DNA from: an uncultured Rhodobiaceae bacterium
Lineage (GTDB): Bacteria > Pseudomonadota > Alphaproteobacteria > RS24
Length of the DNA: 32,473 bases
Reading direction: 5' to 3'
Assembly (NCBI GenBank): GCA_913051715.1
Contig: CAJXCG010000011.1
Coordinates: 1-32,473 of the forward strand
This document shows, in pieces, positions 1 through 3,511 of the stretch. The position numbers were made by a program, and so were the translations under genes. The first letter of the stretch is position 1. Each line of letters opens with the position of its first letter. The notes under the pieces were generated by a model. The model was not told where the DNA came from and made no database searches. It saw only the letters and a program-made list of their open reading frames with translations.

Positions 1-196
1 TTTTAGCCATGCTTGGGCGGAAGCCTATGTTAACGAGTTAGGTTGGGTTGGCTTTGACATATCCAATGCCATGTCGCCCAATGCCAATTATGTTCGACTG
101 GCTTCCGGATTTGACTATAGCGATATTCAACCGGTTGCAGGCTTGCGCTTTGGTGAAGGTGCAGAAAAAATGTCTGCCAAAGTAACCATCCAATAA
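1..196 (+). CDS. transglutaminase-like cysteine protease, C-terminal part (5' end outside window)
   Basis: The open frame enters from the left edge (codons start at base 2) and ends at TAA 194-196, giving 64 residues. It starts FSHAWAEAYV and continues GWVGFDISN and YVRLASGFDY. HAW with the following FD supplies the His and Asp of the transglutaminase/papain-like Cys-His-Asp triad; the Cys would lie upstream, outside the window. This C-terminal pattern is typical of the transglutaminase-like proteins encoded beside Anbu peptidases (COG1305 type). The stop lies 12 nt before the Anbu start, so the two are almost certainly co-transcribed. The role in that operon is not established; peptide or crosslink processing is an inference. 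Confidence 0.85.
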   Translation, partial: FSHAWAEAYVNELGWVGFDISNAMSPNANYVRLASGFDYSDIQPVAGLRFGEGAEKMSAKVTIQ

Positions 197-208
197 AAAG
201 GAACCTCG

Positions 209-958
209 ATGTCATATTGCGTCGCTCTGCGTTTGAATTCGGGACTAGTTTTTATGGCCGATACACGCACTAATGCTGGTGTTGACAATGTGTCACGCTA
301 TACAAAAATTCACACATGGTCAGTTCAGGGAGAATTGCAAATATACTTGTTGAGCGCAGGGAATTTGGCGACGAGCCAGGCAGTCATAAGCCATTTACAA
401 GAGGGCGACAAAGCACCTGATGGCCCCAAGTTGGGCCTCATGCAAGTCACATCTATGTTTCAGGCCGCCCGCCTATTGGGCGAGACCTTGCGCGAGGTTA
501 TCGGAGAAATGAGAGATGGAGGGCAGGAAGCATCCAAACAATTTGATGCCACGCTGATTTTGGGGGGACAGGTTAAAGGCGGTAAAATGAGCCTATATTT
601 GATTTATCCCGAAGGTAATTTTATTGAGGTTTCCGACGACCAACCATTTTTCCAAATTGGCGAAACCAAATATGGTAAACCAATTCTGGTACGCGCTTTC
701 GATGAATGCCTTAGCTTTAATGAAGCCGTTAAATTACTGGTAGTGTCTTTTGACTCAACAATTAAAGCTAATGTGTCTGTCGGCATGCCGCTGGATTTGT
801 GCATCTATGAAAGAGACAGTCTCACGCCCGGTCACAGCCAAAGATTGGCTGAAGACAATGAGTATTTTCAGGAATTATCGCGGCTTTGGGGCGCCAAGCT
901 GAAAGATGCCTTTGGCGACTTGCCTGACTTTCAATTATCTAGACCCCATCGAAATTGA
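209..958 (+). CDS. Anbu / proteasome-type peptidase (ancestral beta-subunit family)
   Basis: This 249-residue protein has the full length of the Anbu (bacterial proteasome homologue, COG3484) family, an Ntn-hydrolase related to proteasome beta subunits and HslV. The start MSYCVALRL and the strings ADTRTNAGVDN and KIHTW are diagnostic. After removal of Met1, Ser would be the N-terminal nucleophile; counting from that Ser, Asp17 and Lys32 fall where proteasome-type enzymes place their catalytic Asp and Lys. The ATG is preceded by AAGGAA at good spacing. In known genomes Anbu sits with alpha-E, ATP-grasp and transglutaminase-like genes; here the transglutaminase-like gene lies 12 nt upstream and the others would be off the left edge. 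It is probably cytoplasmic, since there is no signal peptide. Its substrate is unknown. It is carried on an apparent genomic island. Confidence 0.93.
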   Translation: MSYCVALRLNSGLVFMADTRTNAGVDNVSRYTKIHTWSVQGELQIYLLSAGNLATSQAVISHLQEGDKAPDGPKLGLMQVTSMFQAARLLGETLREVIGEMRDGGQEASKQFDATLILGGQVKGGKMSLYLIYPEGNFIEVSDDQPFFQIGETKYGKPILVRAFDECLSFNEAVKLLVVSFDSTIKANVSVGMPLDLCIYERDSLTPGHSQRLAEDNEYFQELSRLWGAKLKDAFGDLPDFQLSRPHRN

Positions 959-1001
959 ATAATAAACCACAGATTTTCAAATCAAACTGGAGTTTAGTTC
1001 T

Positions 1002-1532
1002 ATGAGCCAATTAAAATTGAATGCGGCCTTCACGATTGAAGTAGACATTGAAATCCCTCTTCAGGTGCATCAGGGTAAATCGATTTTCAATGTGCCATCT
1101 GGCGAGCTCATCGACTCCAAGAACAATAATGTACTTGGAGAGTTACTCGGTCCCTCTGGAGATTGGCTAGAAATCCAACCATCCGGGACGATGAATTTGA
1201 ACATCCGAGATGCATTTAAATTGGAAAATGGTCATAACCTTCTAGCAACCATAACAGGGCGTTCGGTACCAAATGAAGTCGTTGTGCCTAAAATGGAAAA
1301 CGGGTCTCTGGTTAGCGGAGACGAAATGTATTTCGTCCACTCTCTTCTTATGGAGACGGACTCTGAAAAATACAATTGGGTAAACGATAGAGTTTTCCTT
1401 GGTCAGATGACCGAGTTAACCATGCCCTCCGAAGTGCCAACCAGAATTTCTTACGATGTTTTTGTCATTGGATACGAAGCACACGGAGATGGGCAGGGGG
1501 CTGTTGGCAATCGCGTAACTCATCATGTCTAA
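1002..1532 (+). CDS. DUF3237-like protein of unknown function
   Basis: This 176-residue protein has no signal peptide or membrane segment. Its layout matches the DUF3237 family: a start with alternating hydrophobic residues (FTIEVDIEIP), a central GDWLEIQPSG and LNIRDAFKLENG, then NWVNDRVFLGQ and a final beta strand ISYDVFVIG. DUF3237 proteins are small beta-barrels without an assigned activity. It starts 43 nt after the Anbu stop, with GGAG upstream of the ATG, so it may be the last gene of the Anbu transcript; I know of no functional link between the two families. Base composition is low-GC like the rest of the island. The family call rests on pattern memory and could be tested by a profile search. 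Confidence 0.7.
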   Translation: MSQLKLNAAFTIEVDIEIPLQVHQGKSIFNVPSGELIDSKNNNVLGELLGPSGDWLEIQPSGTMNLNIRDAFKLENGHNLLATITGRSVPNEVVVPKMENGSLVSGDEMYFVHSLLMETDSEKYNWVNDRVFLGQMTELTMPSEVPTRISYDVFVIGYEAHGDGQGAVGNRVTHHV

Positions 1533-1555
1533 TTGCGACGGATTACCCTTCCACA

Positions 1556-1607
1556 ACCCAAACATTCGATTTGGGAATGAGGGTAAACCCAAACATTACC
1601 CAAACAT
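1556..1607 (+). repeat. three direct copies of ACCCAAACAT next to the island end
   Basis: ACCCAAACAT occurs at 1556-1565, 1587-1596 and 1598-1607, with start-to-start spacings of 31 and 11 nt. These are close to three and one helical turns, so the copies would face the same side of the DNA. An inverted TTTGGG half lies at 1570-1575. The cluster is 37 nt before the tRNA fragment that forms the presumed attachment site. Such phased direct repeats beside a core site resemble arm-type integrase or excisionase binding sites. That role is inferred from position only. Confidence 0.5.
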
Positions 1608-1643
1608 GGGTCATTATGGTGATGAAAACATTGGTAAATTTTA

Positions 1644-1691
1644 AGGCTCATAACCTGAAGGTCGTAGGTTCAAATCCTACCCCCGCAACCA
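1644..1691 (+). other. attachment site: 3' fragment of initiator tRNA-Met (CAT)
   Basis: The segment reads as the 3' half of an alphaproteobacterial initiator tRNA. It has AGG of the anticodon stem, the loop CTCATAA (1647-1653, anticodon CAT), CCTGA, a variable region, a perfect T-arm with stem GTAGG/CCTAC around TTCAAAT, the acceptor strand CCCCGC and ACCA. The bases before 1644 cannot supply the 5' half: the D-arm and the CGCGGGG acceptor strand are absent. The homology begins in the anticodon stem, a common crossover zone for tyrosine recombinases. The fragment is followed by a terminator, as expected for the displaced original 3' end (attR-like). An intact tRNA-fMet with the same 48 nt should lie at the other end of the island. 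Confidence 0.85.
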
Positions 1692-1720
1692 AAAAACCCC
1701 GTTTTCCGGCGGGGTTTTTT
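1691..1720. terminator. bidirectional intrinsic terminator
   Basis: AAAAAACCCCG (1691-1701) pairs with CGGGGTTTTTT (1710-1720) around an 8-nt loop. The T-run follows the stem on both strands. It directly abuts the tRNA 3' end on the plus strand and lies 16 nt beyond the stop of the minus-strand nitroreductase gene, so it can end both transcripts. Confidence 0.85.
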
Positions 1721-1736: not shown

Positions 1737-2405
1737 TCAGTCAACAAACACGGCCAGATCATCAAGGTCGCGGCGGCTTTGTTGCAAGCGATTAATGGCG
1801 GCCGTGTCGTCGGGATAGCCGAAGGACATGCCGACAACAATGCCGTTATCGTCGGGAATACTGCATATTTCGCGCACCGGATCAGGAAATGCCGCCAACG
1901 CGCCCTGCGGGATACAGCCAATGCCGCGCTCGGCAAATAACAACATGATCGATTGCAGGAAAATGCCCAGATCCAGCGCATTGGCGCGGTTCATGGTTTT
2001 CGGCATGGACACGAAAGCGACATGCGGTGCGCCGAAAAACTCGTAATTTTTCAACACGGTCAAGCCCCGATCCATTTTGTCTTCGCGGCGTATGCCCAAC
2101 GCATCATAATAAGCAAAGGCACATTCATATTGGCGCTCCTTATAGGCACCGACCAGCCCGACACCGCCGGCCGGCCATTGCGGGCTGGCGGCCTTGCCGC
2201 TTTCGATTTCCGCCAAAATTGCGGCTTGCAATTTTTGTCGCGCCGCGCCTGATGCCACCGCAATATGCCAAGGCTGGGTGTTGGAATTAGACGGAGCGAG
2301 CCGCGCAATTTGGAGCACTTCTTTGATGGTTTCGAGCGGCACGGGCGTGTCGGCATAAGCGCGTGTCGAGCGTCGTCCGGATATGGCGTCGGTGACTGAA
2401 AGCAT
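1737..2405 (-). CDS. nitroreductase family protein
   Basis: This 222-residue protein has the usual length of FMN-dependent nitroreductases. The N-terminus has the FMN-binding RRSTRAY motif (about residues 11-17) followed by ARLAPSNSNTQPW (about 34-46), a hallmark of the family. The C-terminal part has GIGCIPQGALA and GMSFGYPD, corresponding to the second FMN-contacting segment. Such enzymes reduce nitroaromatics, quinones or enones with NAD(P)H; the substrate cannot be read from the sequence. The start chosen has GGGG about 6 nt upstream. It is the first chromosomal gene beyond the presumed island boundary, and its transcript would end at the 1691-1720 hairpin. Confidence 0.92.
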   Translation of the reverse strand: MLSVTDAISGRRSTRAYADTPVPLETIKEVLQIARLAPSNSNTQPWHIAVASGAARQKLQAAILAEIESGKAASPQWPAGGVGLVGAYKERQYECAFAYYDALGIRREDKMDRGLTVLKNYEFFGAPHVAFVSMPKTMNRANALDLGIFLQSIMLLFAERGIGCIPQGALAAFPDPVREICSIPDDNGIVVGMSFGYPDDTAAINRLQQSRRDLDDLAVFVD

Positions 2406-2497: not shown

Positions 2498-3511
2498 TCA
2501 AATGTCGAACGCGTCCCCGATAGCCGCGCAGCTTTGGCTCCACAAAAGCTCGCGCGTTTGCGGATTGTCATAGCTGGTTTCCAGCGGGTATCCGACGGCT
2601 GGGCCTTTGAGGGCTGTAAACATGCCGCCCATGCCGGGGCCGAAAAATTGCCCCGATTGTGCGTCCGGATGCGCGATGCAGGTCAAAATGCCCAGCGCGC
2701 CGTCTTCCCTGGACTGGCCCAATTTCATCAGCTGTTTGGTAAACCACTTTCCCATACCGCCATCGGTAACGGTGGTTGACTGCAAATCAGTTTCCGCCAG
2801 ACCCGGATGGGCCACCAGAGCCTTCACCTTAGAGCCCTTGGCGGTCAGTTTTTCGTGCAGGCTGGCTGTAAAGGCTGCATTTGCCAGTTTTGTCTGGCCG
2901 TAGCGCACCCATCGCGCCCCGCCGAAAAGCATGCTGGCGCCGTTGCCGCCGAGATTGCCGCCGTTTTTTCCCAGATACGCCGCCTCCAGTTTTTTCACTT
3001 GCTGGCGGGCGATGCTTGAATGGTTAACAATGCGCGCTTCGCCGCGCGCATCGCCGGCTTTTTCCAGCAGGTCAAAACACAGCTTGGTCAACAGAAAATG
3101 CGACAGGTGATTGGTTTGCATTTGCACATCGAACCCGTCTTCGGTCGCGTAATCTTCGAGCGCCATAACACCGGCATTATTGCAAAGCACGTCCAACCCA
3201 TCGGGGCACTGTGTGTGCAATTTCTTAGCGGCTTTCTTGACAGACGCGAAACTCTGCAAATCGCAATCAATTTGGGTGAAAGATCCGTTTGAGTTGTTCG
3301 CCTTCAGTTTTTCCAAAGCCGCCTTTGCGCGATCGGAGGGTCGGTTCAGCAACAAGACTTTCGCGCCAAGCTTGCCGCAGGCATTTGCCGCGACGAAACC
3401 GGTTCCCGACGTAGTGCCGGAGATGGCAACGGTTTTGCCTTCCATGGAGGGCAGGCTGTTGAAAAGATCATCAAAGTGTTTGCTGGCAAGGCCGGGCTTT
3501 TCATAGGACAT
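2498..3511 (-). CDS. short-chain dehydrogenase/reductase (SDR), protochlorophyllide-reductase-like subgroup
   Basis: At 337 residues this is longer than a classical SDR (about 250) and fits the extended protochlorophyllide-reductase/retinol-dehydrogenase-like group. The nucleotide-binding motif is SGTTSGTG (Gly32, Gly36, Gly38), with Thr37 where Ile is usual (GxxxGIG). NNAG is at 111-114, Asn134 in QTNHLSHF, the catalytic Ser in NHSS (164-166), and YxxxK is Y204/K208 in YGQTK. The C-terminal extension (after about residue 270) includes GPGMGGMFTALKG. It is predicted to be a soluble NAD(P)H-dependent oxidoreductase with unknown substrate. It is divergent from the acyl-CoA dehydrogenase gene across about 200 nt that would hold both promoters. 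Confidence 0.92.
   Translation of the reverse strand: MSYEKPGLASKHFDDLFNSLPSMEGKTVAISGTTSGTGFVAANACGKLGAKVLLLNRPSDRAKAALEKLKANNSNGSFTQIDCDLQSFASVKKAAKKLHTQCPDGLDVLCNNAGVMALEDYATEDGFDVQMQTNHLSHFLLTKLCFDLLEKAGDARGEARIVNHSSIARQQVKKLEAAYLGKNGGNLGGNGASMLFGGARWVRYGQTKLANAAFTASLHEKLTAKGSKVKALVAHPGLAETDLQSTTVTDGGMGKWFTKQLMKLGQSREDGALGILTCIAHPDAQSGQFFGPGMGGMFTALKGPAVGYPLETSYDNPQTRELLWSQSCAAIGDAFDI

Follow-up and report, generated by a model that had tools for sequence, protein, structure and literature searches.

Attachment half-site of a phage-type element in the initiator tRNA gene of an uncultured Rhodobiaceae bacterium, with an Anbu peptidase gene as its probable cargo

Does an Anbu peptidase gene that lies next to a truncated initiator tRNA gene belong to an integrated element, and to an element of what kind? 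Anbu is a proteasome relative scattered among bacteria, and we know of no established function for it. Some temperate phages use a tyrosine integrase and a lambda-type attP to insert themselves at the 3' ends of tRNA genes, and marine tRNA-associated islands include tycheposons and satellite-like hitchhiking elements. The window, by which we mean the whole 32,473-nucleotide stretch analysed here, is the entire contig C11 of a MAG (1.67 Mb, 119 contigs, 93% complete). The contig start falls within the element under discussion, and the DNA left of base 1 lies outside the assembly. The features at this end of the window are as follows, each with its basis in parentheses.

2 to 196, plus strand: C-terminal piece (64 residues) of a transglutaminase-like protein, cut at the contig end (translation; Transglut_core match weak and below the Pfam cut-off; alignment with genome G003)
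209 to 958, plus strand: Anbu peptidase, 249 amino acids, with an MSYC... start (Pfam Proteasome; PDB Anbu chains; tree; Ser/Thr count)
1002 to 1532, plus strand: DUF3237 (UPF0311) protein, 176 amino acids (Pfam PF11578, E = 5e-18)
1557 to 1643, no strand assigned: attachment-site arm with three direct repeats of CCCAAACAT at 1557, 1588 and 1599 (identical to viral contig L144)
1644 to 1691, plus strand: attR core, the 3'-terminal 48 nt of tRNA-fMet, with the 5' half lacking (alignment to intact tRNA-fMet)
1697 to 1720, plus strand: hairpin resembling a terminator, followed by a T-run, host-side of the core (sequence; comparison with unoccupied fMet loci)
1740 to 2405, minus strand: nitroreductase-family protein, the first host-side gene (Pfam PF00881)
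2498 to 3511, minus strand: short-chain dehydrogenase, the host-side anchor (Pfam; ortholog also downstream of fMet in genomes G002 and G003)

Partial tRNA genes are marks of prophage integration (PMC9897764). Positions 1644-1691 correspond to positions 30-77 of an intact tRNA-fMet with 48 of 48 nucleotides identical, and 1644-1692 match genome G002, of the same genus, at 49 of 49. ARAGORN detected no tRNA in the window, and an Rfam tRNA match at 1625-1680 stays under the gathering score, with broken pairs in its 5' part; the first-pass annotation had described a 48-nt 3' fragment lacking a 5' half at this place, and these results bear it out. The 47-nt core has no second copy in the MAG at up to three mismatches. 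Directly 3' of the core stands a hairpin with a T-run (about 1697-1720), in agreement with the terminator proposed earlier. From comparison with the unoccupied fMet loci of G007 (C3), G017 and G025 it is judged to be the native tRNA terminator. The composition changes at the core, with 44.7% GC over 1-1640 vs 56.3% from 1740 onward, so that the lower GC noted to the left of the fragment is confirmed by measurement. GC3 is about 46% in both left genes vs about 54-74% (mostly 61-68%) in the right-hand genes.

The stretch that borders the core on its left contains three copies of CCCAAACAT, against 0.1 copies per strand predicted by base composition, and neither strand of the 32-kb window has a further copy. 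These repeats are presumed to be arm-type integrase sites. A scan of IMG/VR with part of the arm stretch returned one matching contig, L144, which is identical to window positions 1557-1692 at 136 of 136 nucleotides. L144 presents, in order, an arm with the three CCCAAACAT copies, the tRNA core, a second arm with two further CCCAAACAT copies, and an integrase ORF (phrog_1, E = 3e-49; PF00589, E = 2e-17) for which annotated phages gave no match with an E value of 1e-20 or lower. Viral contigs L146 and L147 encode an integrase 93% identical to that of L144 in the same layout, with CCCTGACAT replacing CCCAAACAT, and in both of them endolysin and small membrane protein genes (the lysis end) adjoin the arm. 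The arm-core-arm arrangement of L144, together with its tyrosine integrase, is that of an attP. No second arm of L144 was found on the host side of the window (alignment score 21 vs a shuffled maximum of 25), and the hairpin region 1697-1720 is dissimilar to this viral arm by alignment. Because the window holds the same arm and core as the L144 attP, with a host side that lacks the second arm, it reads as an attR. The sequence comparison demonstrates the attR configuration, and there is very little doubt that the attR in the window belongs to a phage-type element with a tyrosine integrase, inserted at tRNA-fMet. The proposal that a tyrosine-recombinase element had used the 3' end of this tRNA gene is thereby upheld, since the shared arm and core form the L144 attP beside an integrase. 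In G019, a member of another genus, 24 of 25 arm nucleotides are shared at an equal distance from its own fMet fragment.

The remainder of the element was sought in the MAG, where the only two PF00589 matches resemble XerC and XerD; the element's left part lies outside the assembly. Neither an attL nor a phage gene was found in the window or the MAG. No phage genes stand beside the window's arm; Anbu and DUF3237 are found there instead, and neither matches PHROG.

Other genomes describe the insertion site itself. In G002, G014 and G007, 23S and 5S rRNA genes are followed by an intact tRNA-fMet, so that this tRNA closes the rRNA operon. In the window's own MAG no 5S rRNA match, no rRNA operon and no intact tRNA-fMet were detected, and the intact tRNA gene is probably missing along with the operon. 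A second arm, an attL-type remnant, follows tRNA-fMet in the congeners G002 (alignment score 115 vs 39 for shuffled sequence) and G003 (120 vs 31) and also in G010 (67 vs 33). Beyond the intact fMet of G002 lie 15.7 kb at 45.3% GC; they carry metabolic genes, show no recognised integrase and extend as far as the ortholog of window 2498-3511. The G003 contig starts within the fMet 3' end and reaches the same ortholog 2.3 kb on. Since this ortholog lies downstream of fMet in both genomes, the right side of the window is the native downstream side of the fMet site. The best family matches of the nitroreductase-family gene (1740-2405) stand in other contexts, and gene order around the fMet locus is strongly variable within the genus. 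In the closed genome G036, the intact tRNA, an integrase and a fragment are all present, with 22 kb between tRNA and fragment.

The first-pass annotation had called integration into an initiator tRNA notable, a judgement that does not hold for viral contigs. At least 120 IMG/VR contigs contain the 47-nt core without a mismatch, and among 80 copies examined there, 17 belong to an intact tRNA, 60 lack the 5' half and three lie at an edge; the initiator tRNA is a common attachment site in viral contigs. Our literature search on the initiator tRNA as attachment site returned nothing direct, and the tRNA-fMet of a Sinorhizobium paper is a gene carried by the phage rather than its attachment site. 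Short stretches of 0.65-1.4 kb from tRNA-fMet to a further fMet fragment or decayed copy were also seen in G016 (L292), G007:C3 (L077) and G009 (L069); they are cassette-like, some with a single gene, and without an integrase. In G007:C2 (L067, 1-9873) an fMet 3' fragment stands well away from the intact gene; beside the fragment are a tyrosine integrase and genes resembling metal-efflux ones.

The window's Anbu protein aligns with five distinct PDB Anbu sequences from residue 1 or 2 to 240-246 (best E = 2e-76). Its presumed N-terminal nucleophile (209-217) is Ser, as in G001 and G003, vs Thr in all 35 of the other alphaproteobacterial sequences compared; despite Ser for Thr, full-length similarity still places the predicted protein with Anbu. 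In the Anbu tree, the window sequence groups with G001 and G003 (97/95), beside a SAR116 sequence. Import from outside the genus was considered, and is countered by this grouping and by the common Ser: Anbu is a gene of the genus's own lineage, now within an element, and no distant import. The gene lies 10 points below its surroundings in GC, a gap exceeding that in G001 or G003. Anbu operons have the order ATP-grasp, alpha-E, transglutaminase, Anbu (PMC5666114). The window agrees in that the end of a transglutaminase gene directly precedes Anbu, as in G001, G003 and the SAR116 locus L082, and the G003 gene that aligns with window 2-196 is a complete transglutaminase directly upstream of Anbu. 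It differs from the described operon in adjoining an attR, in having the first two genes off the contig, and in a Ser nucleophile common only to two congeners. The partner genes whose recovery had been suggested earlier did not turn up: no ATP-grasp or alpha-E gene was found in the 93%-complete MAG, and if present they lie beyond the contig end, their expected position. Both are present upstream of Anbu in G001 and G003.

In those two congeners, Anbu stands outside any attachment site. The G001 operon adjoins YchF-like genes. That of G003 is found at 6.5-10.3 kb from fMet on the host side, a position that rests on two contigs joined via a common 24-nt end; the window's orthologs of its flanking genes are at 3.7-8.4 kb. 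This closeness to fMet in G003 suggests that Anbu may have been captured from the neighbourhood of the fMet site. Nor does Anbu look like a regular passenger of islands: among 12 contexts from its nearest class-level relatives no similar integrase was found, and the only nearby tRNA was the tRNA-Phe of G193. No relatives of the window's Anbu were found in IMG/VR. In INPHARED, the only Anbu matches are two 'Acinetobacter phage MD-2021a' records (CAKLQH020000004.1 and CAKLQF020000002.1, 232 and 305 kb), whose Anbu has the same identity as Acinetobacter matches on multi-megabase plasmid-set records; they are possibly bacterial contigs filed as phage. Compared with the known anti-phage defence families of PADLOC, neither Anbu nor DUF3237 nor any of the three partner proteins gave a match.

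DUF3237 (1002-1532), which separates Anbu from the arm, is an addition to the genes of the first-pass annotation. It ends 24 nt from the arm start, on the element side. It shares 87.5% nucleotide identity over 497 nt with the G002 gene that immediately follows a tRNA-Arg integrase, and since backbone genes common to the two genomes are about 72% identical, DUF3237 has moved recently. No DUF3237 relatives were found in IMG/VR. The G002 locus (C15, L136, 7733-18950) comprises tRNA-Arg(ccg), a tyrosine integrase, DUF3237 and then about 10 kb of low-GC DNA that includes a subtilase and a second DUF3237; a search for the far end of this island via the tRNA repeat found none.

These observations are best joined as follows. 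The element's attP, which consists of the arm with three CCCAAACAT sites, the 47-48 nt tRNA core and the second arm, would have been recombined by a tyrosine integrase of the L144 kind into the initiator tRNA gene at its 3' end. This would have restored a whole tRNA at the opposite end of the element (attL), which is unassembled, and left the tRNA's displaced own 3' end as attR before the native terminator. Transglutaminase, Anbu and DUF3237 would then lie just inside attR, carried by the element, in the place that lysis-end genes occupy in L146 and L147. We regard it as probable, with good confidence, that window positions 1-1691 form the right end of an integrated temperate-phage-type element with Anbu and DUF3237 carried. 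The arm position puts both genes physically inside the element, and their carriage within it is likely. The element may still move, may be a prophage or a satellite, and may have moved the Anbu operon recently. The earlier view of the Anbu/transglutaminase set as mobile cargo gains partial support from the position inside attR, the low GC and the mobile DUF3237 neighbour, and must be qualified in that the left end, integrase and partner genes are unassembled and the Anbu itself is of the genus's lineage.

The strongest alternative is that the attR is real but old, the element having been mostly lost, and that a deletion or rearrangement later brought host Anbu and DUF3237 to the arm, in which case the element would never have carried Anbu. 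The highly variable gene order at the fMet locus, the host-side position of the G003 operon and Anbu relationships that are those of the genus all speak for such a history. The 136-nt identity to a present-day viral attP nevertheless argues against an old site in decay; the GC gap of Anbu, larger than in either congener, and the mobile origin of the gene that separates it from the arm also speak against such a history, and we consider this course of events unlikely. Far less probable is an assembly chimera in which a phage attP path and a host site were joined at the common core of roughly 48 nt. The contig does end inside an island, and such a core is the type of repeat that misleads assemblers, but a join there would have put a phage end gene on the left, where Anbu and DUF3237 with congener affinities were found; the arm-core junction also recurs in the independent L144 and at the G019 fMet fragment. 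Decayed tRNA copies are known near fMet in the family (G016, G006), yet a decayed duplicate formed without recombination is ruled out here by the 136-nt identity to an attP, the fragment's 3' part being exact and its 5' part replaced by a viral arm rather than degraded.

With carriage by an integrated element as the preferred reading, the locus can be set beside known systems. It resembles tRNA-targeting temperate phages in the L144 attP, with arm repeats on both sides of the tRNA 3' core and the integrase by one arm, and in the 3' tRNA fragment at the window's attR. It departs from them in that the window holds an attR only, and in that the arm's neighbours are Anbu and DUF3237 and not the endolysin and small membrane protein genes of L146 and L147. 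With marine tRNA islands and tycheposons, the loci compared here share low-GC, strain-variable metabolic cargo between tRNA and fragment and the lack of an integrase of their own; unlike in those systems, no replication, packaging or integrase gene is tied to the window's island. Phage-borne PPH and AAH (PMC8665760) likewise are proteasome relatives associated with phage-type DNA, but are families distinct from the window's Anbu, which was not found in IMG/VR.

The arms are not confined to fMet. In G003:C4 (L291, 1-171) the same arms follow tRNA-His(gtg), 97% identical over 77 nt, and in G002:C11 (L135, 6496-9830) an arm with a degraded His fragment lies 3.2 kb after tRNA-His(gtg) (score 58, shuffled maximum 27), the segment containing enoyl-CoA hydratase, CoA-binding and photolyase genes. 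A further site in G002 (C21, L066, 15830-15941), about 120 nt past the intact tRNA-fMet and second arm, consists of a first-arm piece joined to a degraded tRNA-His fragment and not to tRNA-fMet (score 52 vs a shuffled maximum of 24), a case of mixed attachment sites in one place. The arm-bearing tRNA-His and fMet segments may be decayed phages, or elements moved in trans. More tentatively, small integrase-less elements that share temperate-phage arms might, at the initiator and histidine tRNAs, shuttle bacterial gene sets in trans by phage integrase among related marine alphaproteobacteria, with the complete Anbu operon as one such set; we hold this broader scheme to be doubtful.

A half-site for attachment that matches a viral attP exactly provides a marker of mobility only 24 nt away from an Anbu-DUF3237 pair, and the L144 integrase with its attachment site forms a concrete, testable pair. 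Insertions have recurred in this family at the end of the rRNA operon, which helps explain assembly breaks there. Anbu occurs in about 29% of 385 alphaproteobacterial genomes, and an element-borne Anbu would offer a route for this patchy spread.
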